Below, piece by piece: positions 3 to 27,966 of a stretch of 31,281 nucleotides of DNA; within the stretch, counting starts at the first letter, position 1; each line of letters starts with the position of its first letter. Source of the DNA: a virus. Below the pieces are notes generated by a model, which saw only the letters and a program-made list of their open reading frames with translations, searched no databases and was not told the DNA's origin. The translations under genes and the position numbers were made by a program. The stretch lies in the IMG/VR virus record IMGVR_UViG_3300036670_000089, positions 1 to 31,281 of that record. One strand, 5' to 3'.

Positions 3-140
3 CGACCACCACTAAACAGTCTGTATTTTACGTGGACAGAAACACCCCAAGAAAAAACTTGGAGATTACTAAAAGACAGGGTAACGCACAATCGAAATGT
101 GTGGAATACTATAGAATTAACTCAACAGGATAAACAATGA
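3..140 (+). CDS. 3' end of an upstream gene (partial)
   Basis: The reading frame is open from the window edge to a TGA that overlaps the nrdB start as ATGA, which is the usual coupling in this genome. The 45 visible residues are rich in Trp, Asn and Gln and end NTIELTQQDKQ; third positions are A/T rich like the neighbours. It does not resemble the cysteine-bearing C-terminus of NrdA. A second frame (2-133, ending TAA) is also open here and cannot be excluded. No function is proposed. Confidence 0.35.
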   Translation, partial: RPPLNSLYFTWTETPQEKTWRLLKDRVTHNRNVWNTIELTQQDKQ

Positions 141-1237
141 GCAAAGAGCAATACAATTTAACAGTAAAAACAGACTATCTAAACCGCAAGATGTTTCTAG
201 ACCCAGCAGGGCCAGTTACTATTCAACGCTTTGAAGAAGTCAAATACAAGAAGATAGCAGACTTTGATGCAACTGCACGTGGTTTCTTTTGGCAACCAGA
301 AGAAGTAAGCCTCACAAAAGATAGTAACGACTTTAAGGAGGCCAGCGATGCTGTCAAGCATATTTTTACTAGTAACCTACTTCGCCAAACTGCTTTGGAT
401 AGCCTTCAGGGTAGAGGTCCTACACAGGTATTTGCTCCTGTATGCAGCCTTCCTGAACTTGAAGCGCTAATGTACAACTGGGGTTTCTTTGAAACTAACA
501 TTCACAGCAAGAGTTACAGTCATATTATCCGCAATATCTATAACGTGCCTAAGGATGTGTTTAACACAATCCACAACACAGAAGAAATTGTTGGAATGGC
601 AAGTTCAGTAGGCAACTACTATGACAAGTTGCACGTTATTAACTGCCGTAAAGAACTCGGCGAAGTTGTTTCAGAAAAAGAGCATATTAGAGCAATCTGG
701 ATGGCATTACACGCTAGCTATGCACTAGAAGCTTTCCGCTTTATGGTATCCTTCGCTACAAGTCTTGCAATGGTAGAGAACAAAATCTTTATTGGTAATG
801 GCAACATTATCAGCTTGATTCTACAAGACGAATTATTGCACAAAGGCTGGACTGCTTATATTATCAATCAGGTAATTAAGGACGATCCCCGCTTTATTGA
901 AGCAAAGATAGACTGTGAAGCAGAAGTATACGCACTGTACATGGATGTTATCCGTGAAGAGAAAGATTGGGCAACCTACTTGTTTAAGATGGGTCCAGTT
1001 ATTGGTCTTAATGCTAACATCTTGCGTGACTTTGTTGACTTTACAGCAGTGGCCGCGTTAAAAGAAATCGGCATCAAGTACATGTCGCCTGCACCTAAAA
1101 GCACTCCAATACCGTGGTTTAACAAGCATGTGGACACAAGTAAGAAACAGACTGCCCTACAAGAAAACGAAAGTACGAACTATGTACTAGGCGTGATGGG
1201 AGAAAATCTTGACTACGACGCACTTCCGGCTATATAA
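137..1237 (+). CDS. nrdB: Ribonucleotide reductase class I small (beta, R2) subunit
   Basis: The small subunit of class I ribonucleotide reductase holds the metal and tyrosyl-radical site that starts reduction of ribonucleotides to dNTPs; it works in the cytoplasm with the alpha subunit NrdA, which is not in this window. At 366 aa it has normal length. Ligands by comparison with E. coli R2: D88 (in LDSLQGR), E119, H123, E198 (in ALEAFRF), E232 and H235 (in QDELLH). Radical tyrosine is Y127 in HSKSYSHIIRN. The C-terminal tail (NYVLGVMGENLDYDALPAI) resembles the peptide that docks on NrdA. Oddity: E119 and H123 are four apart, where E. coli has ExxH. A glutaredoxin gene follows 185 bases downstream. 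Confidence 0.95.
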   Translation: MSKEQYNLTVKTDYLNRKMFLDPAGPVTIQRFEEVKYKKIADFDATARGFFWQPEEVSLTKDSNDFKEASDAVKHIFTSNLLRQTALDSLQGRGPTQVFAPVCSLPELEALMYNWGFFETNIHSKSYSHIIRNIYNVPKDVFNTIHNTEEIVGMASSVGNYYDKLHVINCRKELGEVVSEKEHIRAIWMALHASYALEAFRFMVSFATSLAMVENKIFIGNGNIISLILQDELLHKGWTAYIINQVIKDDPRFIEAKIDCEAEVYALYMDVIREEKDWATYLFKMGPVIGLNANILRDFVDFTAVAALKEIGIKYMSPAPKSTPIPWFNKHVDTSKKQTALQENESTNYVLGVMGENLDYDALPAI

Positions 1238-5175: not shown

Positions 5176-5715
5176 ATGTCAAATACTAACACCAATCTTC
5201 CAAACATTACTTTTATGTTTCGCGAAGGTGATGAAGCAACTGAAGACGGTGGCTGTGCAATAGGCGGTGAGTTTGTAGCAAAGACTACTACAGACTTGTT
5301 TGCTGGCAAACGAACATTAGTGTTCTCACTACCGGGTGCATTTACCCCAACTTGCTCAACTTACCAGCTGCCAGGGTTTGAAGAAAATTATGAAACAATC
5401 AAAGCAATGGGCATTGATGAAATCTATGTGTCAAGCGTAAACGATGCATTCGTTATGAACGCATGGGCGCAATCTTTAGATATCAAGAACGTTAAAGTTA
5501 TTCCAGACGGCAACGGTGAACTAGCAGACTCAGTAGGCATGCTGGTTGATATGAGTGCAGTGACTTTTGGTAAACGTAGTCGTAGATTCGCTGCTGTTAT
5601 TACAAATGGCACTGTTGAGCAGATGTTTGTTGAGCCAGAAGGTACAGCAACTAATCCTGATCCATACGGTGAAACAAGTCCAGAATCTGTAATGAATTAC
5701 TTGAAGACACTTTGA
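5176..5715 (+). CDS. Peroxiredoxin, Prx5 type
   Basis: A 179-aa thiol peroxidase that reduces hydrogen peroxide and alkyl hydroperoxides. The catalytic motif PGAFTPTCST carries peroxidatic Cys60, and the helper arginine is in GKRSRRFAAV. The insertion FTPTCS and the C-terminal EPEGTATNPDPYGETSPESV are typical of the Prx5/type II group, which usually takes electrons from glutaredoxin or glutathione; a glutaredoxin is encoded 3.5 kb upstream. The other cysteine (C27) is not at a conserved resolving position. It is a single-gene unit with its own promoter and an AAAGGA ribosome-binding site. Confidence 0.93.
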   Translation: MSNTNTNLPNITFMFREGDEATEDGGCAIGGEFVAKTTTDLFAGKRTLVFSLPGAFTPTCSTYQLPGFEENYETIKAMGIDEIYVSSVNDAFVMNAWAQSLDIKNVKVIPDGNGELADSVGMLVDMSAVTFGKRSRRFAAVITNGTVEQMFVEPEGTATNPDPYGETSPESVMNYLKTL

Positions 5716-5730
5716 TGGTTTTCACTATAT

Positions 5731-5756
5731 GAAACAGAGTGTTTCTCCAGTATAAT
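5731..5756 (+). promoter_or_regulatory. -10 box with dyad in the -35 position (pqqA promoter)
   Basis: A perfect TATAAT lies at 5751-5756, but at the 17-base distance there is no -35 box. Instead an inverted repeat GAAAC-N5-GTTTC occupies 5731-5745. This may be an operator for an activator or a weak terminator of the peroxiredoxin gene. Confidence 0.5.
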
Positions 5757-5761
5757 GATAC

Positions 5762-5788
5762 TAAGTACTAGAGCAATACTAGCACTTA
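5762..5788 (+). promoter_or_regulatory. 5' leader hairpin of pqqA mRNA
   Basis: TAAGTACTAG (5762-5771) pairs with CTAGCACTTA (5779-5788) with one A-C mismatch and a 7-base loop. It lies between the -10 box and the ribosome-binding site, so it would form at the very 5' end of the transcript. Confidence 0.55.
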
Positions 5789-5812
5789 AATTTACTAACA
5801 AGGAGAAATACT

Positions 5813-5884
5813 ATGTGGACAACCCCATCAGCAACAGACATGCGTTTTGGATTTGAAATTTGCATGTACGTTATGCACCGATAA
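5813..5884 (+). CDS. pqqA: PqqA-like peptide (pyrroloquinoline quinone precursor)
   Basis: PqqA is the ribosomal peptide whose Glu and Tyr side chains are cross-linked (by PqqE with PqqD) and excised to make the redox cofactor PQQ. This 23-codon ORF starts MWTTPSATDMR and continues FGFEICMY, so Glu15 and Tyr19 have the required E-x3-Y spacing. Length, start MW, the TD.R motif and the terminal Arg all match bacterial PqqA; from memory about 13 of 23 positions equal a Pseudomonas-type sequence. The start is fixed by AAGGAG at 5800-5805, 7 bases upstream. A terminator follows 45 bases after the stop, so it is a one-gene transcript. No pqqB-E genes are in the window; host enzymes would have to process it. 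Position 17 is Cys where I recall Thr. Confidence 0.85.
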   Translation: MWTTPSATDMRFGFEICMYVMHR

Positions 5885-5928
5885 GTGACATAACGACACT
5901 CTTGGAAACAAGAAACTGTTACTAAGAT

Positions 5929-5953
5929 AAAAGCACCTTTAGGGGTGCTTTTT
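5929..5953 (+). terminator. Rho-independent terminator after pqqA
   Basis: AAAAGCACC (5929-5937) pairs with GGTGCTTTT (5944-5952) over 9 bp with a 6-base loop; the T tract is part of and just after the stem. It isolates pqqA from the next promoter. Confidence 0.9.
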
Positions 5954-5954
5954 C

Positions 5955-5983
5955 TTGACTTTATAATCTTATAACAGTATAAT
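5955..5983 (+). promoter_or_regulatory. Sigma70-type promoter of oxygenase pair
   Basis: TTGACT at 5955-5960 and TATAAT at 5978-5983, spacer 17 bases. It begins immediately after the pqqA terminator and lies 25 bases upstream of the next start codon. Confidence 0.88.
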
Positions 5984-7207: not shown

Positions 7208-7606
7208 TTGACAATGCACCTAGAAGGCCCGTGGCTTAGTACTACCGGCAAACGTAAAGGCAAGAAAAAATTTGCTTCCGCCGAACATGCCAGAAAAGCT
7301 CGCGAACAAGAAGAATCTTGGAAAGACCTACAGAAGCGTTGGGGTGTTGAGACTGAAGATAAGAAACGCACTCGAGCAATGAGAGCCCCGAGTTTATCCA
7401 GTGAATATAATCTAACGATCCCGGCAGGGAGAAACACAACTGCCCATATTCCTAGTAAAAATACAACCGGCGGCTACGCTATTCTTAAACCGATTCCTGT
7501 TTACACAGGCGATAAAATGATCGGTATCGGGCAGCTACACAAGTCAAATGCGGTTCCAGTATTTCGTTCTGAAGATATCGAAGATATTGCAAGGATGCGT
7601 CGATAA
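7208..7606 (+). CDS. Conserved phage protein, 132 aa
   Basis: The product begins MTMHLEGPWLSTTGKRKGKK and is very basic in its first 60 residues. The second half has GRNTTAHIPSKNTTGGYA and IGIGQLHKSNAVPVF, which I recall as a recurrent pattern in hypothetical proteins of aquatic myoviruses. The TTG at 7208 is preferred to the ATG at 7214 because AGAGG (7196-7200) is 7 bases before the TTG and 13 before the ATG. The function is unknown; the basic N-terminus could bind nucleic acid. Confidence 0.82.
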   Translation: MTMHLEGPWLSTTGKRKGKKKFASAEHARKAREQEESWKDLQKRWGVETEDKKRTRAMRAPSLSSEYNLTIPAGRNTTAHIPSKNTTGGYAILKPIPVYTGDKMIGIGQLHKSNAVPVFRSEDIEDIARMRR

Positions 7607-11442: not shown

Positions 11443-11840
11443 CCGATAAAATTTTAGTAGTAACTGCGCCTGACGATTCACTGATTGACGGTATTCGAGT
11501 ATTGTTAGTAGAATTATCTAATGACCAATCGCTAGTTGTTTCTAATGCATTACTTACTGCTGATACAAAATATTCAATAATTACCTATGCTTGGAAAATG
11601 GGCGATAGTATTGAATGGCTACTCGACAAGAAATCGAAAAGCGATATTATAATTTTTAACGCAGATGCAGCAGCAAATGGTGCAATTGAGTTAATTATCG
11701 GCTATATCGCTGCCCAGCCAAATTCTTATTACTTTGGCAATTTAAAATCTCTAGTCCTGGCCAACGATTCGGCTATATATACTGCAGATCACATTTTATC
11801 GCTTCTGGAGAGAGCAAAAAACTATTATGATAAGAAATAA
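11439..11840 (+). CDS. Hypothetical phage protein, 133 aa
   Basis: The product alternates beta and helix segments ([44 protein letters not shown]), like a small Rossmann or receiver-type alpha/beta fold, but with no nucleotide-binding or phospho-acceptor motif that I can recognise. It overlaps the genes on both sides, so it is translated with the membrane protein and with bS21. Function unknown. Confidence 0.75.
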
Positions 11841-12060
11841 ATTGAAAGGTACCGGAGTAACGGTAAAAGAACACGAAAACATTAATCAGGCTCTACGCCG
11901 GTTTAAAAATAAAGTGGAAGAAGCAGGAACACTAGATATCCTACGTGCTAGAGAATTCTACGAAAAACCTACAACAGAACGCAAACGCAAAAAAGGTGCT
12001 GCTAAAGCTCGCTGGCGTAAGAATTTGCGTGATGCCCAATTGCCTAAAAAAATGTATTGA
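11827..12060 (+). CDS. rpsU: Ribosomal protein bS21
   Basis: A 77-aa homologue of small-subunit protein bS21, which sits near the anti-Shine-Dalgarno end of 16S rRNA and aids initiation. The family core [16 protein letters not shown] and the diagnostic [14 protein letters not shown] (43-56) are intact, followed by a basic tail. Phage-encoded bS21 is known from aquatic phages and may bias ribosomes to phage mRNAs. The gene overlaps the preceding one by 14 bases. The N-terminus ([15 protein letters not shown]) is slightly longer than in bacteria. Confidence 0.93.
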
Positions 12061-13257: not shown

Positions 13258-13557
13258 ATGACCGCAGAAGTTAAACAAGACGAGAAAGTTGTAGTAGTAT
13301 TGCAGCCACCTAAGATGTGGAAAGTAATTTTACTAAATGATGATAAGACACCAATGGAGTTGGTCATTCTGTTGTTAACAAAAGTATTTAAGCACGATGA
13401 AAAACGTGCTACTGAAATCACTATGGAAATTCATAATACTGGCAGTGGCGTCGCCGGTGTGTATTCATATGAAATTTCAGAACAACGTGGAATTGAAGCT
13501 ACAGACATCGCTCGTGCAAACGGCAGCCCTTTAAAAGTCCAGGTGGAGCAAGAATGA
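13258..13557 (+). CDS. clpS: ClpS adaptor protein
   Basis: A 99-aa ClpS, the adaptor that brings proteins with destabilising N-terminal residues (N-degrons) to ClpA for degradation by ClpP. The family core is clear: WKVILLNDDKTPMELVILLL, the helix KRATEITMEIHNTGSGVAGV and YSYEISEQRG, which together form the N-degron pocket (the NDD.TP loop and the IH..G.GVAG region). Length is near the bacterial norm. GGAG precedes the start. No ClpA is in the window, so it must use a host unfoldase; a ClpP gene lies at 28910. The heme oxygenase start overlaps its stop (ATGA). Confidence 0.93.
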   Translation: MTAEVKQDEKVVVVLQPPKMWKVILLNDDKTPMELVILLLTKVFKHDEKRATEITMEIHNTGSGVAGVYSYEISEQRGIEATDIARANGSPLKVQVEQE

Positions 13558-14099
13558 GCTTAAAAGATATTACCAGTGATCTGCATCACGAAGCAGAAAA
13601 AACAAAGTTTGCCAAGATGTTGCTTAGTGGTAAGATTGAACGAGAAGATTATAGAAACTATCTCTATAACTTAATGGCAGTGTACGACCCAATTGAATGG
13701 TATTGTACTCGTCAAGGATTCCTCAACACGATGCCCGACCTTCCTCGTCTACATGCTATTCATGCAGACTTTCTAGAACTAGATGACGGTAGCTACTGTT
13801 ATCTAACTGATGCTGCTCTAGAGTATCAGGCATACCTGCATAAACTAGGCAATAATCCGGAACGTAAGCATCTTGTTAAAGCGCATTTATACTGCCGACA
13901 TATGGGCGACCTATTTGGTGGTCAAATCATTAAGAAGCAAGTAGCACATATTTCAAGCGGTAAATTTTACGACTTTGAAAATGGTGATGCTATGAAGAGT
14001 GCTATCCGTGCAACACTAACAGACGACCTAGGCGACGAAGCCCGCGTGGCGTTTGAGTTTGCCATTAAGATGATGACGGATTTGTATCGTGGAGAGTAA
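13554..14099 (+). CDS. Heme oxygenase
   Basis: A 181-aa soluble heme oxygenase that opens heme to biliverdin, CO and ferrous iron using reduced ferredoxin or a similar donor. The proximal-His segment DLHHEAEKTKFAKMLLSGK (H11/H12) and the distal helix YCRHMGDLFGGQIIKK (113-128, GDLFGGQ like GDLSGGQ in HO-1) are present. It lacks a C-terminal membrane tail. The next gene encodes a bilin reductase and starts 11 bases inside this one at a GTG, so heme-to-bilin conversion is encoded as one coupled unit. Confidence 0.92.
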   Translation: MSLKDITSDLHHEAEKTKFAKMLLSGKIEREDYRNYLYNLMAVYDPIEWYCTRQGFLNTMPDLPRLHAIHADFLELDDGSYCYLTDAALEYQAYLHKLGNNPERKHLVKAHLYCRHMGDLFGGQIIKKQVAHISSGKFYDFENGDAMKSAIRATLTDDLGDEARVAFEFAIKMMTDLYRGE

Positions 14100-14772
14100 G
14101 GTCTGGGATAGACTAATTGAAATCCAAGACCTGCTGATCAGCGAGTTCGCAAGAACAGGCGCAGAAAAGTTCGAGCCTAGCATGGATCGCTTCAACCAAC
14201 CAGGTTGGGTAAACCGAGTGTGGGTCAGTGACGCTTATCGTCGTGCCCATATTGATGTTGTGGATGCAAGACTAACTAAAGGGCTATGGATGATGCACTG
14301 TTGTATCTTCCCTCATACACATAACCCAGCTCCAATTTATGGATTTGATGTTATTGCTGGTAAAAATAAGATCACAGGCTGCTTCCACGATTACTCAAAA
14401 GCAGGTGATCCCGAACATCCTATGATGGATTGGTTTCATGACGAAGTTGCTAAACTAGAATGGCGCAAGCAACGTGCGCTACCTGAATGGGCTACTAACA
14501 TTTTTAGCGGTAGTATGGTAGCCGCAGGTAATGTAAGCGATGAAGCAGAACTAGATCAAATTGCAAATTTAGCTCAAACTACAATAGCGCATTATCTAAG
14601 CACAGTAGCAGAAACAAATAACACTGCTGAGGATACTACAGCAGCGCAGAACTACTATGCACAAAATCAGAAATGTAATCCTCATACACCACGGGTAATG
14701 GTTAGTTTAGGGCTTAGTGAAGAAGATGTTAAGCATTTTATACAAGAATGCCTGTTCCCTGAAATAGTATAA
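14089..14772 (+). CDS. pcyX: Ferredoxin-dependent bilin reductase (PcyA/PcyX-like)
   Basis: A 227-aa enzyme of the HY2 family that reduces biliverdin to a phycobilin. It aligns well by eye with cyanobacterial PcyA: YRRAHID with FRKMHLE, KGLWMMHCCIFP with KGLDILHCVMFP, PIYGFDVIAG with PLFGCDIVAG, LPEWATNIFS with LPPWGEIFS, and the C-terminal NQKCNPHTPRVM region. Equivalents of PcyA H88 and D105 are H70 and D87; E76, needed for full PcyA chemistry, is D56. PcyX from uncultured marine phages, found beside a phage heme oxygenase and making phycoerythrobilin, is the closest described type I know; the product here is not certain. Start is GTG. Confidence 0.88.
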   Translation: MESKVWDRLIEIQDLLISEFARTGAEKFEPSMDRFNQPGWVNRVWVSDAYRRAHIDVVDARLTKGLWMMHCCIFPHTHNPAPIYGFDVIAGKNKITGCFHDYSKAGDPEHPMMDWFHDEVAKLEWRKQRALPEWATNIFSGSMVAAGNVSDEAELDQIANLAQTTIAHYLSTVAETNNTAEDTTAAQNYYAQNQKCNPHTPRVMVSLGLSEEDVKHFIQECLFPEIV

Positions 14773-17546: not shown

Positions 17547-18401
17547 ATGAAAATTAAACTTGTATCAGACTTACATTTAGAATTTAGCGATTGTGTTATT
17601 AATAATAACGATAATTGTGATGTTCTAATTTTGGGTGGCGACATCATGATTGCACAAGATCTACACGACCATCATGCCGCAGATTTCGATCCGTACAGCA
17701 ACAACGCCTTGGCGGACCTTAGTCGCAAGATGCAAAAAGTCGCTCGCTTTCGAGATTTTTTGAAGCGGTGTAGTTTCCAATTTCCCCATGTTATCTACAT
17801 TATGGGAAATCATGAGTTTTATAACGGAAAGTTCTATGCTAGTATTGATCACATGCGGGACGAAATTGCAAAGTATCCCAACATCTACATGCTGGAGCAG
17901 GATACAAAGATCATTGACAATGTCGTATTTGTAGGCGGCACATTATGGACTGACCTGAACAAGGGCGACCCAATGACCATGCATGCCATCGAAGGCATGA
18001 TGAATGATTTTCGTATCATTCGAAATGACAAACGTGAGTTTGCTCGCATGAGTGCCCGTGATGTTGCAACCCGACATGCTAGAACCCTGAGCTACTTTAG
18101 ACTCATGCTGTCTGAACACAAGGACAAGAAGTGTGTGGTAGTTGGGCATCATAGCCCCAGCTTTCAAAGTGTGCATGAGGACTATAAGTCCCAGTACTTG
18201 ATGAATGGCGGTTACCATAGTGACCTGAGCGAATTTATCCTGGATCATCCGCAGGTTAAACTGTGGACACATGGTCACACCCATTACCCGTTTGATTACG
18301 TGATTGGTGAGACTAGAATTGTTTGTAATCCACGTGGTTACGAAAACGAAGGGTACAGTGAAGACACTGGATGGAACCCTAACATAGTATTGGAAGTATA
18401 A
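17547..18401 (+). CDS. Calcineurin-like metallophosphoesterase
   Basis: A 284-aa two-metal phosphoesterase. Motifs in order: SDLHLEF (D8, H10), GGDI (D32), GNHEFY (N88, H89), VVGHHSPS and THGHTHYP near the C-terminus. Such enzymes cleave phosphomono- or diesters; the substrate is unknown. The N-terminal motif fixes the start, because D8 lies only seven residues in, so no later start is possible. The mRNA therefore seems leaderless. The next gene overlaps its stop (TAATG) and begins the run of tiny genes. Confidence 0.9.
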   Translation: MKIKLVSDLHLEFSDCVINNNDNCDVLILGGDIMIAQDLHDHHAADFDPYSNNALADLSRKMQKVARFRDFLKRCSFQFPHVIYIMGNHEFYNGKFYASIDHMRDEIAKYPNIYMLEQDTKIIDNVVFVGGTLWTDLNKGDPMTMHAIEGMMNDFRIIRNDKREFARMSARDVATRHARTLSYFRLMLSEHKDKKCVVVGHHSPSFQSVHEDYKSQYLMNGGYHSDLSEFILDHPQVKLWTHGHTHYPFDYVIGETRIVCNPRGYENEGYSEDTGWNPNIVLEV

Positions 18402-18637
18402 TGAACGAACGGATTAGAGAACTCCTTAAACAGAGTTGCGGCTTTGAATATGATGAGGACGGTAATGAACTGACTCCGATTCTTGTTGGTAAGGATTTGG
18501 CTAGGTTCGTCGAGTTGATTCTACTTGAAGTTACAGACATACTCATGTCGTATCGTGGCAAAGTTGTGTTCGAAGACGGTGCTGAATATAACTACGAGCA
18601 TCCTATCATTGCTATCAAAAAACATTTTGGAGTTTAA
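18401..18637 (+). CDS. MNERI/HFGV family protein 1 (divergent)
   Basis: A 78-aa member of a family repeated seven times up to 23324: MNERIRELLKQ start, central helix LARFVELILLEVTDIL where other members have KFAQLIVQECA, and IKKHFGV at the C-terminus. All seem to be small helical proteins of unknown function. The TTTGGAGTT codons of its C-terminus provide GGAG exactly 7 bases before the next ATG. Confidence 0.8.
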   Translation: MNERIRELLKQSCGFEYDEDGNELTPILVGKDLARFVELILLEVTDILMSYRGKVVFEDGAEYNYEHPIIAIKKHFGV

Positions 18638-18639
18638 GA

Positions 18640-18897
18640 ATGATTTACATTAGATTTGCTCTAAGAAACCCATGGCTTCAACGGCATGCGGTAATTGTTG
18701 ATAAAGCAATTACAGTCACTGAAAACAAAACTATTGAAGTTGCACTGTACAGGAACAACTGCATATTTGAATTTAGTTTTGGGATTACTAGCTTTAAACA
18801 AGACCACGCCGGCTTTAATTTTGACATTGGGTTGTTTGGATACAACTTTGAGTTTATTTTTTATGATAACAGGCACTACGATGAACGAACGTATTAA
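18640..18897 (+). CDS. Conserved hypothetical phage protein, 85 aa
   Basis: A beta-rich 85-aa protein: LQRHAVIVDKAITVTENKTI, then FNFDIGLFGYNFEFIFYDNR. The C-terminal pattern IGLFGYNFEF..YDNRH is familiar to me from small phage proteins without known role. The GGAG in the previous gene's last codons serves as its ribosome-binding site. It overlaps the next gene by 17 bases. Confidence 0.75.
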   Translation: MIYIRFALRNPWLQRHAVIVDKAITVTENKTIEVALYRNNCIFEFSFGITSFKQDHAGFNFDIGLFGYNFEFIFYDNRHYDERTY

Positions 18898-19114
18898 ACT
18901 ACTTGCCGAACAAGCTCAGATTAGACTATTTGAGGATAAGTCATTTGGGTGGAGTGTGATTGCAGGAACAGATCAGCATTTGGAAAAGTTCGCCCAGTTG
19001 ATTGTTCAGGAATGTGCTGATGTTGCTTGGAGAAATACTCCTGAAACAGAAGAATTGGAATATAGCCATCTAATCAGTGATAAAATCAAACAACATTTCG
19101 GAGTTGAAGAATGA
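18881..19114 (+). CDS. MNERI/HFGVE family protein 2
   Basis: A 77-aa copy with MNERIKLLAEQAQIRLFEDK, LEKFAQLIVQECADVAW and IKQHFGVEE. The ATG at 18881 is chosen because it matches the start of all other copies; the frame is open further upstream but in the middle of the preceding gene. Its central DNA segment (around 18984-19014) is nearly identical to that of copies 3, 4 and 7. The last codons carry the ribosome-binding site of the next gene. Confidence 0.82.
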   Translation: MNERIKLLAEQAQIRLFEDKSFGWSVIAGTDQHLEKFAQLIVQECADVAWRNTPETEELEYSHLISDKIKQHFGVEE

Positions 19115-19539
19115 ATAAACTATTTTTGGACTGTGAATTTAACGGTTTCGGCGGCAAGTTGATGTCCATGGCATTGGTTCCAGCAGGACAGGAACCTGAG
19201 TTCTATTGTGAGATCGAAATGACCGACCAGTTGGATCCATGGGTTGCGGCAAATGTTGTTCCCCATATGACGCAGGTTCCTGTCACCTACACGGAATTCC
19301 AGCACCGTCTGTGCCAGTATCTCATCAACATGGAGAACATCATTATTGTTGCTGACTGGCCAGATGATATTCGTTACTTCTGCGAAGCGCTGATTACTGG
19401 TCCAGGCGAAAGAATTAATATCCCAAGTGTGATAAAGTTTGAACTGGACCTCAACATCGACTATGTATCTGCGGTTCCGCATAATGCACTACATGATGCT
19501 CGTGGTATTAGAGAGCATTTTTTCGGAGTTGAATCGTGA
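19111..19539 (+). CDS. DEDDh exonuclease-like protein ending in FGVE
   Basis: A 142-aa DnaQ-fold protein: LDCEFNGFGG (D7, E9), VADWPDDIRYF (D82 or D85) and PHNALHDARGI (H124, D129). The compact size and motif wording are like Rv2179c-type 3' exonucleases. It differs clearly from the exonuclease at 12113. Its last residues, REHFFGVES, copy the ending of the MNERI/HFGVE family although the rest is unrelated; the GGAG in that stretch sits 7 bases before the GTG start of the next gene. Confidence 0.82.
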   Translation: MNKLFLDCEFNGFGGKLMSMALVPAGQEPEFYCEIEMTDQLDPWVAANVVPHMTQVPVTYTEFQHRLCQYLINMENIIIVADWPDDIRYFCEALITGPGERINIPSVIKFELDLNIDYVSAVPHNALHDARGIREHFFGVES

Positions 19540-19781
19540 AACCCTGTCCCTTTTGTGGCAAAGCAGTTGATATGGAAGATGGTGACACGCTATATCCAAA
19601 TGGCACTGCCTGGCAAGTTCGAGAGAATGGATTGCGAAGTTACCATTCTTATCGAGAAGTAGCTGACCAAGATTCTTGGTGTTACAGCATGCACTGTCCA
19701 ACCACTGCTGGTGGCTGCGGCGCAGAAATGCCAGCCGATTCTAAACAAGAGGCTGTTGATAAATGGAACACCCGAGTATGA
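19536..19781 (+). CDS. Lar-like zinc-ribbon protein
   Basis: An 81-aa protein with two cysteine knuckles: KPCPFCGKAV (C4, C7) and HCPTTAGGCGAEM, ending EAVDKWNTRV. This is the pattern of the Lar family of small phage proteins, whose founder relieves type I restriction in E. coli; anti-restriction here is inference. It starts with GTG, overlapping the preceding stop, 7 bases after GGAG. Confidence 0.8.
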   Translation: MKPCPFCGKAVDMEDGDTLYPNGTAWQVRENGLRSYHSYREVADQDSWCYSMHCPTTAGGCGAEMPADSKQEAVDKWNTRV

Positions 19782-19996
19782 ACGAACGAATTAAAGCACT
19801 GGCTCTGCAAGCTGGAATAGAATTTACATATGATCCGACCGAAACTCCCATGGGAGAGTTTGTCGAAGCCTGGGACGGCGATCTGGAAAAATTCGCCCAG
19901 TTGATTGTGGCGGAATGTATTGCTCTAATATATGAAGATGACGGCGCAACACATCACGCTGAACTACTTGAAGAACATTTTGGAGTTGACCAATGA
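19778..19996 (+). CDS. MNERI/HFGVE family protein 3
   Basis: A 72-aa copy: MNERIKALALQAG, DLEKFAQLIVAECIALIY and LLEEHFGVDQ. The ATG at 19778 overlaps the stop of the zinc-ribbon gene (ATGA) and matches the family start. The rest between the conserved blocks is variable and acidic. Carries the next gene's ribosome-binding site in its last codons. Confidence 0.82.
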   Translation: MNERIKALALQAGIEFTYDPTETPMGEFVEAWDGDLEKFAQLIVAECIALIYEDDGATHHAELLEEHFGVDQ

Positions 19997-20226
19997 AAGT
20001 TAAAGATCTAATCCGCAGACTGAACGCTATTGATCCTGAGATGGAAGTGGCTATCCTAGATGGATTCAATGGTGGCGGACAACCACGAGCAGTAAACCTC
20101 GGGCCTGTGGTTTGGGATCAAGAAACATTGGAAGAAATGGCTGAGTGTGATGAGTCAATTGACTACAGCGACCTAGATGTTAAATCAGGCACTGAAATCC
20201 TTGTGATGGGCTACGGCTGCTATTGA
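19993..20226 (+). CDS. Conserved hypothetical phage protein, 77 aa
   Basis: The protein starts MKVKDLIRRLNAIDPEMEVA and continues ILDGFNGGGQPRAVNL, a pattern common in short phage proteins where a helix is followed by a Gly-rich loop. It overlaps the previous gene by four bases. Function unknown. Confidence 0.78.
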   Translation: MKVKDLIRRLNAIDPEMEVAILDGFNGGGQPRAVNLGPVVWDQETLEEMAECDESIDYSDLDVKSGTEILVMGYGCY

Positions 20227-20244
20227 CAACTAATAACCCATCGG

Positions 20245-20273
20245 TTGACAGGGTTGTCTAAAACTGCTATAAT
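20245..20273 (+). promoter_or_regulatory. Perfect sigma70 promoter (twin copy 1)
   Basis: TTGACA at 20245-20250 and TATAAT at 20268-20273, 17-base spacer ending TGC (extended -10). The spacer is nearly identical to that of the promoter at 20581. GACA/TGTC forms a small dyad at 20247-20258. Confidence 0.93.
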
Positions 20274-20306
20274 ATACACATAGACAGCAACAAACAGGAG
20301 CACATG

Positions 20307-20570
20307 ATGCCATTACCAGATCAAGCAGCAAAAGAAATCGTCACTGAAATTAAAACTATTGTGATCGATGGCGTATCTTATGATCGCACACCTGGCTCCC
20401 CATTTGATTCTGGTAGTGCTGACAGTTACTATGGTTCGGCCTGGAGCCCAAGTAAAGGTATTGGATCAGAGCGTGTTGACCGTATATCGCAGCTTACTGA
20501 CACAGACATAGCTGAATACACCGCAGGCTATACATGGAATGAAGAAGACTACGGCGTTTACAAAAGTTAA
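20307..20570 (+). CDS. Conserved phage protein with YDRTP motif, 87 aa
   Basis: The product contains VIDGVSYDRTPGSPFDSGSA and DSYYGSAWSP, a Tyr/Ser-rich pattern that recurs in small phage proteins. The ATG at 20307 is favoured over 20304 because AGGAG (20296-20300) is then 6 bases upstream. A shorter relative with SYDRTP is encoded at 30064. Single-gene unit between two near-identical promoters. Function unknown. Confidence 0.78.
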   Translation: MPLPDQAAKEIVTEIKTIVIDGVSYDRTPGSPFDSGSADSYYGSAWSPSKGIGSERVDRISQLTDTDIAEYTAGYTWNEEDYGVYKS

Positions 20571-20580
20571 GACCCTTCGG

Positions 20581-20609
20581 TTGACAGGGTCGTCCAAAAG
20601 TGCTATAAT
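20581..20609 (+). promoter_or_regulatory. Perfect sigma70 promoter (twin copy 2)
   Basis: TTGACA at 20581-20586 and TATAAT at 20604-20609, 17-base spacer ending TGC. It matches the promoter at 20245 at all but three positions of the 29 bases. Confidence 0.93.
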
Positions 20610-20636
20610 TAACGCATAGCAATAAAGGAGCTGGTG

Positions 20637-20792
20637 ATGACTGTTTATCTTGTATTGGAAGAGGATCGTGGCTTTGGTACCACAGTGGTAGCTGCGTTTA
20701 CTTCGCTGCCTGGTGCCTACGCATACCTGAATGGACCCAACGGTTCTAACTGCTATCTTGAATCCACTGAAGGCGTAGAGGTTCGAACATGA
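20637..20792 (+). CDS. Small hypothetical protein, 51 aa
   Basis: A 51-codon ORF after AAGGAG (20625-20630), 27 bases past the -10 box. The product, MTVYLVLEEDRGFGTTVVAA followed by FTSLPGAYAYL and CYLESTEGVEVRT, looks like a small alpha/beta domain. The next small gene overlaps its stop as ATGA. No family assigned. Confidence 0.75.
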   Translation: MTVYLVLEEDRGFGTTVVAAFTSLPGAYAYLNGPNGSNCYLESTEGVEVRT

Positions 20793-20929
20793 ACGAACTA
20801 ATACTTTTCTTTGTAGGCATGATTCACGGCTGTATCCTAGGTTACATTGTGTGGGCTCCCAAGACTTCCTTCAAACAAGCATTTCTTGATGGCATGACAC
20901 TACAGTTCCTTTGGAGGAAACGCAAATGA
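20789..20929 (+). CDS. Small single-span membrane protein, 46 aa
   Basis: The ORF overlaps genes on both sides by four bases (ATGA). The product has one membrane helix (LILFFVGMIHGCILGYIVW) and a basic C-terminus (LWRKRK). Its first ten bases, ATGAACGAAC, equal the starts of the MNERI family although the protein is unrelated. GGAGG near its end serves the next start. Confidence 0.7.
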   Translation: MNELILFFVGMIHGCILGYIVWAPKTSFKQAFLDGMTLQFLWRKRK

Positions 20930-21144
20930 ACGAACGAATTCGAGAACTTGAAGCACAATGCTGGGAGCCTAAGCAATACGGTCCACCTTGGTTTAACTCT
21001 CAAAAGTTCGCCCAGTTGATTGTCGAAGAATGTGCTGCTATTGCCTTAAAGAGTGGGAACACAAACAATAAAAGTTTGCAGACAAAAGTTGAGGCAGAAC
21101 GAATCTATCACAAAATTAAAGAACATTTTGGAGTTGAAGAATGA
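20926..21144 (+). CDS. MNERI/HFGVE family protein 4
   Basis: A 72-aa copy: MNERIRELEAQC, SQKFAQLIVEECAAIALK and KIKEHFGVEE. The ATG at 20926 overlaps the previous stop and follows GGAGG by 9 bases; an upstream in-frame extension is disfavoured for both reasons. Carries the next gene's ribosome-binding site in its last codons. Confidence 0.82.
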   Translation: MNERIRELEAQCWEPKQYGPPWFNSQKFAQLIVEECAAIALKSGNTNNKSLQTKVEAERIYHKIKEHFGVEE

Positions 21145-21329
21145 GAACACCTAGATTTTATGTTGCCGATGAAATTAATAATTGGTCTGTCACTAGTCCT
21201 GACAGTCTTGGTTTTTATAAATGCTTGAGACCTATGTCCTATCCAGGGTTTAATATTAGAAAACGATTGAGGATGGCCTGGTGGGTATTCACAGGTAAGG
21301 GTGATGTTCTTATGTGGGAGATTGAATGA
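21141..21329 (+). CDS. Conserved hypothetical phage protein, 62 aa
   Basis: The product ends with LRMAWWVFTGKGDVLMWE, a Trp-rich pattern (AW.VFTGK.D...W) that I recall from many small phage proteins. The start is set by GGAG 7 bases upstream. Function unknown. Confidence 0.75.
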   Translation: MRTPRFYVADEINNWSVTSPDSLGFYKCLRPMSYPGFNIRKRLRMAWWVFTGKGDVLMWEIE

Positions 21330-21604
21330 TGAGTGGTGAACATAATCAATATCAAAAAACAACTGGATATGAAATGAACCAACGAATTAAACTACTGGCC
21401 GAGCAATGCCGACTCAAATCATACGGCATTAATGGCGAACTGCTTGATGTTGATTTTGATGAAGGAAAGTTCGCCGAGTTGATTGTAGAGGAATGTATTC
21501 AAGCAATTCAGAATGAAGGTCAAACATACGAGCACCTAGATGCTGGTGAGTTTCAAGCCAACAACTTTTCTCAAGCAGTGAAACAACATTTTGGAGTTGA
21601 CTAA
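21326..21604 (+). CDS. MNERI/HFGVE family protein 5
   Basis: A 92-aa copy. Family similarity begins only at Met17 (21374): MNQRIKLLAEQCRLKSYG, GKFAELIVEECIQAIQ and VKQHFGVD. The 21326 start is kept because it overlaps the previous stop (ATGATGA), but 21374 could be the true start. Carries the next gene's ribosome-binding site. Confidence 0.78.
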   Translation: MMSGEHNQYQKTTGYEMNQRIKLLAEQCRLKSYGINGELLDVDFDEGKFAELIVEECIQAIQNEGQTYEHLDAGEFQANNFSQAVKQHFGVD

Positions 21605-21798
21605 TGGAACAATATAATCGTAGCGCAAAGTTTGCTGAACTCAAACCGTATGACCATACAGCCAAAGAACATGACTTCATGGAAGTATGTGAATGGCATA
21701 ACGGCGAGGGTTTTGACTTTACACTTAGTGAACGTCAATTCTCACTCACTTGGGGTCAATGGGATTGTTTGCAAGCACTGGTTGATTTTAAAGGATGA
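21604..21798 (+). CDS. Conserved hypothetical phage protein, 64 aa
   Basis: A 64-aa protein with FMEVCEWHNGEGFDFTL and RQFSLTWGQWDCLQALVDF, a pattern typical of short phage proteins with two strands and an amphipathic helix. Start set by GGAG 7 bases upstream. Function unknown. Confidence 0.75.
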   Translation: MEQYNRSAKFAELKPYDHTAKEHDFMEVCEWHNGEGFDFTLSERQFSLTWGQWDCLQALVDFKG

Positions 21799-22328
21799 AT
21801 AATATGAGTAACTATCAAAAACATGCACTGGCAGAATTCAAAGCTGCCGGCTGGCTCGACGACACTGGAAAGTACAACAATGAGATGCAAGAAGCGATCT
21901 GTACTAATGTATTGAAAATGCTTGATATCTTTGCTGATGAAGGTCACTCTGGATCTTCCGCATCTTATACAATCAACTTATTCAAGAAAATCGCAAGTTT
22001 CGAACCACTAGGTCCGCTGACTGGCACCGATGATGAATGGCATGACGTTGGAGATGGTGTGTTCCAGAACAAGCGAATGTGTTCTGTGTTCAAACGAGCT
22101 GATCGTTTCGATGGTCAAGCATATTGGTTGGATGGCAAAGTATTCTGGGAATGGTGCTCATCACCGGACATTGATGACGGTAAACTATTCAAGTCGTATT
22201 TCACTAATTCAGACTCGTGTGTTCCTATTGAATTTCCGTGGGTAAAACCCGAGAAGTCCGAGTACGTGTTTACTCCAACTGAACAGTTTCCTAATGAGGA
22301 TTTGACTGAACTCCCATTTATGAGCTGA
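21795..22328 (+). CDS. Conserved phage protein, 177 aa
   Basis: One of the larger genes of this block. The product has YQKHALAEFKAAGW, a helical section LKMLDIFADEGHSGSSA, then FEPLGPLTGTDDEWHDVGDG and VFQNKRMCSVFKRADRFDGQ; I recall this combination from many phage genomes, always without assigned function. The ATG at 21804 (MSNYQKH) is an equally possible start. Overlaps the previous stop by four bases. Confidence 0.8.
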   Translation: MNNMSNYQKHALAEFKAAGWLDDTGKYNNEMQEAICTNVLKMLDIFADEGHSGSSASYTINLFKKIASFEPLGPLTGTDDEWHDVGDGVFQNKRMCSVFKRADRFDGQAYWLDGKVFWEWCSSPDIDDGKLFKSYFTNSDSCVPIEFPWVKPEKSEYVFTPTEQFPNEDLTELPFMS

Positions 22329-22352
22329 ACGATTGAAACAAGAAAGAACATT

Positions 22353-22556
22353 ATGAACAAAAAAATTAAACAACTTGCTGATAAAATTTGGAGTTTAGAC
22401 ATTGAGCCTAACCCTCATTTTCAATTATGTTTACAAGCGTTTGCTGAATCAATTGTGCAGGAATGTGAATCGGTTAGTATTAATAATAGCCACCGCGATG
22501 ATGATATGGGTGCTATTATTGCTCGAAAGATTAAACAACATTTTGGAGTTGAATAA
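22353..22556 (+). CDS. MNERI/HFGVE family protein 6
   Basis: A 67-aa divergent copy: MNKKIKQLADKIWSLD, LQAFAESIVQECESVSI and KIKQHFGVE. It is preceded by a 24-base gap rather than an overlap. Last codons carry GGAG 7 bases before the next ATG. Confidence 0.8.
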   Translation: MNKKIKQLADKIWSLDIEPNPHFQLCLQAFAESIVQECESVSINNSHRDDDMGAIIARKIKQHFGVE

Positions 22557-23050
22557 TGGATAATGCTGTACAAACACTACACACCTGCCTGGCCCATGCT
22601 GCCTATGTGGGTTTCCGGGACTATAATTATCAAGACCGAAACTGGGGCAACTATCGCAAGTGGCGGGAAGATGTGTTCGACCGGCTGAGCCAGGATCAAA
22701 AGAAAACGCTGTATGAGCAAGAACGCAGTACCGGCGTCCACATGGGCCCGCCTGACACCAAAGTTGAAAAGACTCGCAAACACACTGACTATGACATGAC
22801 AGTGGCGGCTATGTTTCCGCAGACCTGGGGCAGCACTGCACTAGGCTTTGGTGGCGTTGGCGGACAAGCTATCACCACTGCTTATGTGGTGATTGTGAAA
22901 AGCAATTTGACAGGAGAGTGGGCTGTGTATTTTGGTGGCAGACTGGCTTATGTTATTGCTCGACCAAACGAAGTGTTTTACGTTCATATCCATGCTAATA
23001 CAATGGTAGACGCTAACAAGGGAAAGGCCACATATGAACAAACTAATTAA
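22556..23050 (+). CDS. Conserved hypothetical phage protein, 164 aa
   Basis: The N-terminal half is charged and helical; the C-terminal half, from MTVAAMFPQTWGSTALGFGG through TTAYVVIVKSNLTGEWAVYF to FYVHIHANTMVD, is beta-rich with Gly turns. It is more GC rich than its neighbours in the first half. No catalytic motif recognised. Overlaps the next gene by 17 bases. Confidence 0.75.
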   Translation: MDNAVQTLHTCLAHAAYVGFRDYNYQDRNWGNYRKWREDVFDRLSQDQKKTLYEQERSTGVHMGPPDTKVEKTRKHTDYDMTVAAMFPQTWGSTALGFGGVGGQAITTAYVVIVKSNLTGEWAVYFGGRLAYVIARPNEVFYVHIHANTMVDANKGKATYEQTN

Positions 23051-23324
23051 AGAATTTGCGGTAGAAGCACAAGCTCATGCACTTGTACAATTTAACGGCG
23101 ATTCTACAAAGTGGTCAGCGCTGTATAATCAAAAGTTCGCCCAGTTGATTGTTCAGGAATGTGCCGAACTCAACAGGAAACAAAGTTACAACATAATGGG
23201 TGTGTTGGTGGATATGGCAGAACCCAACGCAGAGTTTGACCGGGTGTGTTTGAACACAGTAAACCACGTGCATACATACTTGAGCGGCGACGCCTTGAAA
23301 CAACATTTCGGAGTTGAAGAATGA
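23034..23324 (+). CDS. MNERI/HFGVE family protein 7
   Basis: A 96-aa copy with an insert between the conserved blocks: MNKLIKEFAVEAQAHAL, YNQKFAQLIVQECAELN and ALKQHFGVEE. The central DNA segment is nearly identical to that of copy 2. Last codons carry GGAG 7 bases before the next ATG. Confidence 0.8.
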   Translation: MNKLIKEFAVEAQAHALVQFNGDSTKWSALYNQKFAQLIVQECAELNRKQSYNIMGVLVDMAEPNAEFDRVCLNTVNHVHTYLSGDALKQHFGVEE

Positions 23325-25577: not shown

Positions 25578-25847
25578 ATGAGCAAGCCTATAGTAATGAC
25601 TCCGGAACAATGGTCTATAGTTCTTACTGTGATTAAGCAACGTGAAAAGCCCAGTATTTATCTATGTCGAGCCAAGATGAAAGATGTACTGGGCTTTACA
25701 GTACGTGAACATACCGAATATGAGTATCATGCTAGTAATAATAATTCGTTTGACGCGGCGGATATGGTACATACTGTTCGACTGGATTTCTACGATGAAC
25801 CGAAACGCACAATGTTTCTATTAAGGTATGGTAATGGCCGGAACTAA
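25578..25847 (+). CDS. FALRW-tail family protein 1
   Basis: An 89-aa protein, first of a run of eight small genes whose products end in a strand pattern F/Y..(D/E)..DAT(L/M)FALRW. Here the tail reads DEPKRTMFLLRYGNG. The N-terminal part is IVMTPEQWSIVLTVIKQREK. Function unknown. Confidence 0.72.
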   Translation: MSKPIVMTPEQWSIVLTVIKQREKPSIYLCRAKMKDVLGFTVREHTEYEYHASNNNSFDAADMVHTVRLDFYDEPKRTMFLLRYGNGRN

Positions 25848-26079
25848 AGTTGCAACCCTTGATCAGTTACTATCAACACGAGTCAGGACTGTTTATCCTT
25901 ATAGGGTAAATTTTGACGGCATCACCCGTGATCAAATTCAAGAAATGGATAGTTGGTGTACTGATAACTGTAAAGAAATTTGGCGGGAAGAACACAATTA
26001 TGCACATTACTTTCAGTTCACTGACGAGCATGATGCTATGATGTTTATGTTAAAGTTTGGCAGTAGAGGTAATAGATGA
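25828..26079 (+). CDS. FALRW-tail family protein 2
   Basis: An 83-aa product (77 codons in common with an ATG at 25834): YRVNFDGITRDQIQEMDSWC, then YAHYFQFTDEHDAMMFMLKF. The C-terminal block is the family tail. It overlaps the previous gene by 20 bases; AAGG lies in the coding sequence just upstream of the start. Confidence 0.72.
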   Translation: MVMAGTKVATLDQLLSTRVRTVYPYRVNFDGITRDQIQEMDSWCTDNCKEIWREEHNYAHYFQFTDEHDAMMFMLKFGSRGNR

Positions 26080-26342
26080 AAGTAGAGTTTCCTCATGGTG
26101 TGTCCGACGAGTGTGTTGCATGGTTGCGAGAACATGTGGGCGTTGGCGGTGACATGATTAGGCTAGACAGGCGTTTTGATCAGTGTGCGTGGTACTATGA
26201 GCGTAGATTTCGACCATATGATAAACGGGTTGATGATAAACAGGTTCATGACACTGCTGGTGATTACATTCCCACAATCACTGTGAAAGATCCCAAGCTG
26301 GCTACTCTGTTTGCATTGAGGTGGAGTGGACATGCTGTATAA
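26076..26342 (+). CDS. FALRW-tail family protein 3
   Basis: An 88-aa protein: MKVEFPHGVSDECVAWLREH and the tail VKDPKLATLFALRWSGHAV. Start overlaps the previous stop (ATGA). The codons for ALRWS include AGGTGGAG, which serves the next gene. Confidence 0.74.
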   Translation: MKVEFPHGVSDECVAWLREHVGVGGDMIRLDRRFDQCAWYYERRFRPYDKRVDDKQVHDTAGDYIPTITVKDPKLATLFALRWSGHAV

Positions 26343-26607
26343 AATGCCTAGCGAATTATATTTCAAAGTAACCAAACATCACTCTCTCGATGGGCTAGGA
26401 GTACATGCGGGTAGTGATTTTGATCTAGAAGATTTTGCTAAAATTATTAAGAAAACTTACGGCCTAAAAGATTTAGACCATTGTGAATTTCCAGAAGACG
26501 ACAACGACCCTGCCTGGCTTACACCAGGAGGCGGAGAATTATATCACTATAAGATAGTGGATAAGAAACTATTTACTCTGTTTGCTCTACGATGGAGTGG
26601 ATCGTGA
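26332..26607 (+). CDS. FALRW-tail family protein 4
   Basis: A 91-aa protein: MLYKMPSELYFKVTKHHSLD, an acidic centre and the tail VDKKLFTLFALRWSGS. The ATG at 26332 is chosen because GGAG (26323-26326), inside the previous gene's tail codons, is 5 bases upstream. Confidence 0.72.
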   Translation: MLYKMPSELYFKVTKHHSLDGLGVHAGSDFDLEDFAKIIKKTYGLKDLDHCEFPEDDNDPAWLTPGGGELYHYKIVDKKLFTLFALRWSGS

Positions 26608-26813
26608 GAATACTGAAAAAAGAACTGTGGCCACACTGTGTGAATCTTGGTGTAGATGACACAGGAATGAAAATTGACAATGTTGAAATATGGTTAGGCA
26701 AACACTTAGGGTCATTTAAGGATCAGTGGAATGCTGTCTATCATCATAACAGCACCGACTTTTATTTTAAAGAAGGCAGAGATGCTACCCTGTTTGCCCT
26801 GAGGTGGTCATGA
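26604..26813 (+). CDS. FALRW-tail family protein 5
   Basis: A 69-aa protein starting at GTG 26604 (MRILKKELWPHCVNLGV), which overlaps the previous stop and lies 6 bases after GGAG; an ATG at 26592 is an alternative. Tail: FKEGRDATLFALRWS. Confidence 0.68.
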   Translation: MRILKKELWPHCVNLGVDDTGMKIDNVEIWLGKHLGSFKDQWNAVYHHNSTDFYFKEGRDATLFALRWS

Positions 26814-26992
26814 AATTTCGAGCCAAGGTGTCGGCAAGCCCTATGAGCCGCGATTGGGAACAACGCCTTGCCTGGTGCAGAAGCACATTTGGATCTGAGT
26901 CGCATGACCGATGGATGCCCAAGCATTGTTACGAGTTTAGATTTACCAACGAACAAGATTTGGCATTTTATCTATTGAGGTGGGGCATATAA
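26810..26992 (+). CDS. FALRW-tail family protein 6
   Basis: A 60-aa protein: MKFRAKVSASPMSRDWEQRL and the tail RFTNEQDLAFYLLRWGI. The ATG overlaps the previous stop (ATGA); GAGG in the previous tail codons is 5 bases upstream. Confidence 0.7.
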   Translation: MKFRAKVSASPMSRDWEQRLAWCRSTFGSESHDRWMPKHCYEFRFTNEQDLAFYLLRWGI

Positions 26993-27390
26993 TGGATTTA
27001 TATCCTTGGCAAGAACGATTAGTAGATGCTATGATAAAAAATAAAAGACAGAAGATGACTATGTTCACTGCTAGACAATTAGGTAAAAGCGTATGTACTC
27101 AACAGGCCATAGACCGACTTATGCGTGATTTAACCAGTAAGCCTGTTAGTGATCTCATACTGAGTGAAGGCCAAGTTTATGGATCACGCTACTATTGTGT
27201 GGAACCTATTGGAGGCAATTGGTTAGATATGGAAGTGTGGGCGTTGGACACCTACGGCGGTACCGGCAGTATTTGGGGGCAGGCCGACAACGATGTACCA
27301 GGGACCAATGCTCGATGGTATATGAACGACCGCAGGTTTTGGTTCCGTGAAGAACAGGATAGAACGATGTTTGTTCTAAAATGGAGATAA
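26992..27390 (+). CDS. FALRW-tail protein 7 with Walker-A-like N-terminus
   Basis: A 132-aa protein. The N-terminus (YPWQERLVDAMIKNKRQK, then TMFTARQLGKSVCTQQAI with GKS at 31-33) resembles the first strand and P-loop of helicase/terminase ATPases, but Walker B and everything after is missing. The C-terminus is the usual family tail (WFREEQDRTMFVLKWR). It looks like a fusion of an ATPase N-terminus with the tail; ATP binding is uncertain. I recall similar short proteins from marine myoviruses. Confidence 0.7.
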   Translation: MDLYPWQERLVDAMIKNKRQKMTMFTARQLGKSVCTQQAIDRLMRDLTSKPVSDLILSEGQVYGSRYYCVEPIGGNWLDMEVWALDTYGGTGSIWGQADNDVPGTNARWYMNDRRFWFREEQDRTMFVLKWR

Positions 27391-27608
27391 TAGACTATAC
27401 TGACTACATGGTATTGCCCTGTGGAGGAGTTGCCTATTATGACGAGCCTCGGTTTGGAATGAACTATTTCTGTGCTCAATGCAATACTATAGTAGGCAGT
27501 CGAGACATGCCTGTAGAGTGCCAGAATGAAGAGGCCAAGTGGGAATTAAACAAGATGCTAGGCGGTCCAGGTTGGGACTATTTTGCAGAACCAGATGAGT
27601 TTTTCTAA
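27381..27608 (+). CDS. Small cysteine-knuckle protein, 75 aa
   Basis: The protein has PCGGVAYYDEPRFGMNYFCA with a CxxC at 31-34 (CAQC), followed by VGSRDMPVEC (C47). C14, C31, C34 and C47 could bind one zinc, like a zinc ribbon. The pattern CG.VAYY...C..C...VGS..MP.EC is familiar from phage genomes. It overlaps the preceding gene by 10 bases. Function unknown. Confidence 0.72.
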   Translation: MEIIDYTDYMVLPCGGVAYYDEPRFGMNYFCAQCNTIVGSRDMPVECQNEEAKWELNKMLGGPGWDYFAEPDEFF

Positions 27609-27609
27609 T

Positions 27610-27966
27610 ATGGCAATAAGCAGTTTTAGTGGTGGGTTAGATATGCAAGCAATGTCAGGATGGATAGGCAAAAAACCTACTAAGACTATATATCAATATA
27701 ATCAAGTAGGAGACAGTGTGGAAGAAATGCGTGAAATTGTTGTCCATTCTTTTACTATGGGCGATGTAGATGATCCTGATTTATATGCGACCCACCCCTT
27801 GATGGAATGGCAAAATAGCGAGTTTGGCCAATGGGTTATGAAAAATGCCTGCGATGTACCTACATGGCATAGAATGTCTGATGCTGAAAGCTGGGGCTAC
27901 AAGTATGCAATCACAGCCAAGTTTATGGGTCCGTGTTTGACTGAGATGTTGTTAAGAAAAAAATAA
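27610..27966 (+). CDS. Conserved phage protein, 118 aa
   Basis: The product contains WIGKKPTKTIYQYNQ, VVHSFTMGDVDDPDLYATHP and TWHRMSDAESWGYKYAITAK. I recall the FTMGDV.DPDLYA motif from small T4-like phage proteins. The ATG at 27610 directly follows the previous stop; an in-frame ATG at 27595 is an alternative. The last residues (LTEMLLRKK) lie where related proteins carry the FALRW-like tail. Confidence 0.72.
   Translation: MAISSFSGGLDMQAMSGWIGKKPTKTIYQYNQVGDSVEEMREIVVHSFTMGDVDDPDLYATHPLMEWQNSEFGQWVMKNACDVPTWHRMSDAESWGYKYAITAKFMGPCLTEMLLRKK

Follow-up and report, generated by a model that had tools for sequence, protein, structure and literature searches.

A stand-alone gene for the PQQ precursor peptide PqqA in a T4-like phage contig, with counterparts in methylophage isolates

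The viral record analyzed here over its full 31,281 bases (IMG/VR record IMGVR_UViG_3300036670_000089; 'the window') contains a 23-codon gene for PqqA, the peptide precursor of PQQ, and comparable genes are present in sequenced phage isolates and in numerous environmental viral contigs. It is probable, in our assessment, that a T4-like phage, likely infecting Methylophilaceae or similar bacteria, supplies PqqA, from which the enzymes of the host make PQQ for methanol dehydrogenase. With less confidence, we lean toward the broader proposal that provision of PqqA alone is a recurrent phage strategy, in which lytic methylotroph phages that are unrelated to one another, and temperate lambdoid phages infecting Klebsiella-like enterobacteria, gained the 23-codon gene independently, and which was overlooked since gene callers skip such short ORFs.

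The pqqA unit of the window

The peptide encoded by the window scores 33.5 bits (E 4e-8) against the Pfam profile PF08042 (PqqA; curated cut-off 21.1 bits), with residues 1-19 aligned to positions 1-19 of the 19-position profile, and 30.4 bits against the NCBIfam PqqA equivalog TIGR02107 (cut-off 20 bits). In a six-frame PqqA search of the whole record, this ORF was the sole match (E 1.3e-8), so the resemblance is not due to chance. The peptide begins with MW, contains TDMR and GFE, and carries Glu15 and Tyr19 at E-x3-Y spacing, the pair that PqqE is expected to cross-link. By these sequence criteria the ORF is a genuine pqqA gene, and an earlier note on this DNA, which had claimed a PqqA-like peptide with the marks MW, TD.R, GFE and Glu15/Tyr19, encoded by a 23-codon ORF with a Shine-Dalgarno site, was correct in each of these particulars, including the exact extent of the ORF (Table 1). 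Two residues are unusual: position 17 is Cys, as in 2 of 262 aligned viral copies (Thr in the other 260), and position 22 is His, where 238 of the 262 have Asn. Cys17, which lies between the reactive residues, could affect the processing of the window peptide.

The pqqA unit, which is flanked by a promoter-like site and an intrinsic terminator (Table 1), looks monocistronic, because the next unit has a promoter-like site of its own; the RNA of positions 5760-5960 folds far better than shuffled sequences (z -5.0). A terminator-like hairpin is also found just 3' of pqqA in three contigs with closely related PqqA (L099, L127 and L274), the gene order of the window (peroxiredoxin, pqqA, phrog_27048 gene) is repeated in contig L235, and other neighbors of the window pqqA are common to L099, L274 and L310. 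The retention of these hairpins and neighbors in related contigs shows that pqqA is established in this T4-like lineage, in which it appears to be separately transcribed. More generally, 227 of 240 PqqA ORFs scanned have a Shine-Dalgarno-like motif within 20 nt upstream. The DNA similarity of the window to distant records is confined to the peroxiredoxin and pqqA regions and was uninformative as to the host, and its backbone resembles that of phage Melnitz to a limited degree only. The T4-like gene content makes it probable that the record covers just part of a larger phage genome.

Table 1. Coordinates of pqqA genes and associated features in the window and in other phage genomes and contigs (positions without a prefix refer to the window).
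Feature	Position	Strand	Remarks
Ribonucleotide reductase small subunit	137..1237	+	Lineage marker: 81% to L274, 61% to Xanthomonas phage X1
Peroxiredoxin (Redoxin PF08534)	5176..5715	+	Upstream neighbor of pqqA
Sigma-70-like promoter ATGAAA-16-TATAAT	5729..5756	+	Consensus match only
Shine-Dalgarno AAGGAG	5800..5805	+	7 nt 5' of pqqA ATG
pqqA	5813..5884	+	23 aa, MWTTPSATDMRFGFEICMYVMHR; 23 codons then TAA
Intrinsic terminator	5929..5952	+	10-bp stem, 4-nt loop, T-rich tail; 44 nt past pqqA stop codon
Promoter-like TTGACT-17-TATAAT of next unit	5955..5983	+	Consensus match only
phrog_27048 protein	7208..7606	+	Function not known; homologue on pqqA-bearing L235, L099, L274, L310
P19250A pqqA	L333:28082-28153	-	Unannotated, complete genome
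Venkman pqqA	L334:9974-10045	-	Unannotated, complete genome
MEP301 pqqA	L335:3313-3384	-	Unannotated, complete genome
MEP402 pqqA	L336:43047-43118	-	Unannotated, complete genome
Melnitz pqqA	L331:26134-26208	+	Unannotated, complete genome
pqqA of lambdoid prophage L319	L319:2349-2420		

Several other features of the window were recorded. A heme oxygenase gene (13554-14099, +) is followed by a gene for a ferredoxin-dependent bilin reductase (14089-14772, +) that is PcyX/PebS-like and has its closest phage relative, at 50%, in Pelagibacter phage Mosig; the pair is present on this pqqA-bearing contig though the likely host is not photosynthetic. Since heme oxygenase and PqqC have the HO fold in common, the former was weighed as a PqqC-like protein and rejected, as it matches the Heme_oxygenase profile and not PqqC. 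The window also encodes a phage-borne ribosomal protein S21 (phrog_21469; 11827-12060, +), ClpS (13258-13557) and ClpP (28910-29485), as well as two sets of paralogous small ORFs whose function is not known: about seven at 18401-23324 (+), which start like MNxRI(K/R)xL and end in HFGVE/D, and about eight at 25578-28235 (+), which share a C-terminal motif that ends around (F/Y)xLR(W/Y).

Distribution and conservation of viral pqqA

A tblastn search of 50,697 phage records with four different PqqA queries revealed pqqA in each of the nine genomes of methylophage isolates that were recovered (P19250A, Venkman, MEP301, MEP401, MEP402 and four Melnitz genomes); the count applies to these nine and not to methylophages at large, which also include the T7-like OM43 phages MEP431-434. 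The spring-water phage ctXG6705, whose terminase and capsid group with those of Venkman, also has pqqA, and no further genuine phage pqqA was found among these records with the four queries. Two records labeled 'Acinetobacter phage MD-2021a' (L010 and L011), which hold a complete pqqABCDE operon, appear to be contigs of a bacterial chromosome, and a match in Gordonia phage Aflac is due to chance (E 10). None of the nine isolate records annotates pqqA, several showing an empty spot or an antisense hypothetical ORF in its place; in Venkman and MEP301, the gene is oriented against the surrounding early genes.

The isolates represent five essentially unrelated terminase/capsid sets. Among the terminase and capsid sets of P19250A, Venkman, MEP301, MEP402 and Melnitz, the only mutual similarity is a weak one between the Melnitz and Venkman terminases (19.5% identity, E 1e-7). 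With the window lineage this gives about six backbones bearing pqqA in different gene contexts, from which we argue for repeated gain of the gene. Carriage is uneven, amounting to 5/6 contigs of the Venkman type, 5/10 of the MEP301 type, 1/7 of the MEP402 type and 0/5 of the Melnitz type in a set selected by terminase or capsid and made up mostly of partial records; the many MEP402- and Melnitz-type contigs without pqqA indicate that it is not essential.

In IMG/VR, two DNA patterns each matched at least 120 contigs, with every listed match inside a short PqqA ORF, and a third pattern added 25 loci, for a total of 262 viral pqqA copies, including that of the window, among the matches listed. 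More than 240 viral contigs of IMG/VR thus carry the gene, and ten of ten representative viral PqqA sequences exceed the Pfam cut-off. Grouped by the proteins that they have in common, the first 237 contigs lie close to Melnitz, ctXG6705/Venkman, MEP301, MEP402 or P19250A, or to none of these. Marine contigs with further PqqA types, such as MKWETPEYSDIRFGFEVTMYINNK, were also seen.

Nine contigs (L228, L237, L257, L268, L270, L280, L289, L319 and L327) form a group of lambdoid prophages with an orphan pqqA, which adjoins a UmuD-like gene close to the end of the prophage and has an AGGAGG-like site upstream and a terminator-like hairpin directly 3'. The main form of the encoded peptide is identical to Klebsiella pneumoniae PqqA at 22 of 23 residues. 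This prophage pqqA was not found among the 50,697 phage records, nor was its flanking DNA found in E. coli genomes.

The viral peptides are conserved where PqqE would act. In a search pattern that placed no constraint on codons 15 and 19, Glu15 and Tyr19 were present in 128/128 viral copies, with the Tyr19 codon divided between TAC (71 copies) and TAT (57), and such retention of the reactive pair is expected of a PqqE substrate, not of a decoy. Mean pS and pN over viral pqqA are 0.64 and 0.17, and the resulting pN/pS of 0.27 is probably an underestimate, since other residues were fixed by the search patterns.

The window contains no homologue of pqqB-E or xoxF by tblastn with OM43 queries, and a tblastn search with OM43 PqqB, C, D, E and XoxF of about 2.18 Mb around the 262 copies, representing neighborhoods and not whole phages, gave a single match, a 28-residue piece of PqqB at the edge of contig L321 that looks like host DNA. 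Apart from this fragment, pqqB-E and xoxF were absent from these neighborhoods, and no complete pqqABCDE operon was found in the window or in the other viral loci with the OM43 queries. These observations bear out two expectations of the earlier note, namely that so short a gene is easily missed (as in the nine unannotated isolate genomes) and that only the consumed peptide is supplied. None of the outcomes that the earlier note named as refuting it was obtained: the PqqA profiles match, and Glu15 and Tyr19 are invariant in related phages.

Hosts and the proposed role of phage PqqA

The nearest bacterial relatives of the phage PqqA copies are in Methylophilaceae, and, among 369 sampled genomes of the class, the closest bacterial match to the TDMR-type PqqA found in relatives of the window is in OM43, at 87%. 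The window host is therefore probably an OM43-like methylotroph, as judged from the peptide and its relatives. All 120 Methylophilaceae genomes sampled contain pqqA, in 1-12 copies (2-12 in 117 of them), with pqqC nearly always single-copy. Multiple orphan pqqA genes are already known in this family (PMC4109929), as is an extra PqqA encoded in trans to pqqBCDE in Hyphomicrobium (PMC9851590); these resemble the phage copy in providing PqqA in trans and differ from it in being chromosomal and bacterial. OM43 strain HTCC2181 encodes a PQQ alcohol dehydrogenase that scores over the cut-off and has three pqqA genes, none at pqqBCDE and none before pqqB (L694:1854-1953), so an adjoining pqqB-E is not a defining feature of PqqA. 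The metabolism of HTCC2181 thus relies on PqqA supplied in trans even in the absence of a phage, and a phage-encoded copy could join in with no partner genes. The plausible hosts do carry pqqB-E, whose absence the earlier note had named as evidence against its reading.

In the proposed mechanism, a T4-like phage, most likely of Methylophilaceae or a similar PQQ-making bacterium, would have acquired pqqA and would transcribe it as a short stand-alone message from which the peptide is made. The radical-SAM enzyme PqqE and the chaperone PqqD of the host would then join Glu15 to Tyr19, and a host protease together with PqqB and PqqC would complete PQQ. Because one PqqA is consumed per PQQ, the peptide alone might raise or sustain PQQ once host genes are shut off, and a PQQ-dependent (XoxF-type) methanol dehydrogenase, and with it energy and C1 flux, could be kept running during infection. 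Carriage of pqqA by isolates that infect methylotrophs fits the methanol-dehydrogenase idea, and effects on PQQ, dehydrogenase activity and phage yield are predicted. Being present in genuine phage genomes (the isolates) and having a host homologue, phage pqqA is classed here as an auxiliary metabolic gene on genomic grounds.

A possible variant, to which we give serious if lesser weight, is that, with host DNA degraded or host transcription shut off, the phage copy does no more than make up for the pqqA messages that the host has lost while existing PqqB-E keep working, so that PQQ is maintained and not boosted. Carriage of only the used-up component, in a small independent transcription unit, would suit such maintenance; its premise of a host shut-off by these phages is assumed, however, and pqqA is also carried by lambdoid prophages, which do not usually shut down their host. 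A boost and mere maintenance are not separable from sequence.

Phages often encode small inhibitors, and since the phage peptide is expected to bind PqqD, it might instead occupy PqqD/PqqE, lower PQQ synthesis and redirect carbon or electrons. We regard this as very unlikely: nothing would oblige a decoy to keep the reactive pair, but all copies in which those positions were left free retain it, and the commonest host peptide among the fetched loci, MWTTPAATEMRFGFEVTMYVMNK, is encoded unchanged by 25 viral contigs. Peptides other than PqqA are known substrates of PqqE-like radical SAM enzymes, and the window is a phage fragment, leaving some room for a role as a RiPP-like signal or redox peptide matured by another enzyme; its near identity to the PqqA of hosts, a distribution that matches PQQ-making hosts and the lack of further pqq genes or xoxF in the loci, in a search limited to pqqB-E and xoxF, make this use outside PQQ synthesis very unlikely. 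Finally, a functionless, accidental host fragment or assembly artefact, as the tiny size of the gene and its closeness to host copies might suggest, is scarcely credible given its presence in sequenced isolates, its syntenic position in a related phage contig, its Shine-Dalgarno site and terminator, and a protein strongly conserved while synonymous sites vary.

Prior reports and comparison with known systems

The reading that we prefer, phage supply of PqqA to host PQQ synthesis, has a precedent in the Lake Baikal contig VP_266, in which PqqA is encoded together with a phage methanol dehydrogenase on a T4-type contig with a predicted Methylophilaceae host (PMC7678222). That study gives no further pqqA cases and states that phage P19250A encodes none of its auxiliary metabolic genes, a statement attributable to a missed ORF, since the pqqA of P19250A went unannotated. 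Viral pqqA, pqqD and pqqE are also listed, with no accompanying analysis, in a reservoir survey (PMC13188868), and pqqA is not mentioned in the main texts of the papers on Venkman, Melnitz, MEP301 and MEP401/402. The shortness of the ORF accounts for its absence from these records and main texts. Phage pqqA therefore appears to have been known but barely noticed, and its recurrence across lineages, of which no report was found in the open literature, is the new part.

The products of phage metabolic genes are mostly enzymes or subunits that can be reused; here, a 72-base gene would provide a substrate used one-for-one, with catalysis left to the host. If the recurrent-strategy reading is true, PqqA supply, not enzyme capacity, would be one control point for PQQ-dependent metabolism in nature. 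Phage pqqA also offers an inexpensive means of asking whether PQQ and methanol oxidation are limited by the supply of PqqA. The methanol oxidizers infected by pqqA phages are abundant in the marine and freshwater carbon cycle, and the gene illustrates the small-peptide cargo that phage annotation overlooks.

Compared with the PF08042/TIGR02107 family, the window peptide is typical in its length of 23 residues (about 23-29 aa in the family), its own ORF with a ribosome site, its over-cut-off profile matches and its E-x3-Y pair, and atypical in Cys17, His22 and the lack of an adjoining pqqB. With the methylophage isolates, the window shares a stand-alone PqqA ORF (23-24 aa), a Shine-Dalgarno site and the absence of other pqq genes, whereas the isolates have other backbones and gene neighborhoods, and their peptides are 61-74% identical to that of the window. 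VP_266 is likewise T4-like, with PqqA and a predicted methylotroph host, but pairs pqqA with a methanol dehydrogenase, whereas the window has pqqA without a dehydrogenase in the 31 kb seen. Cyanophage auxiliary metabolic genes such as psbA provide a phage copy of a short-lived host component and are thought to sustain energy metabolism. Phage pqqA would be alike in being a copy of a host component that sustains energy metabolism, and unlike in that PqqA is a consumed substrate peptide and not a catalyst or reusable subunit.
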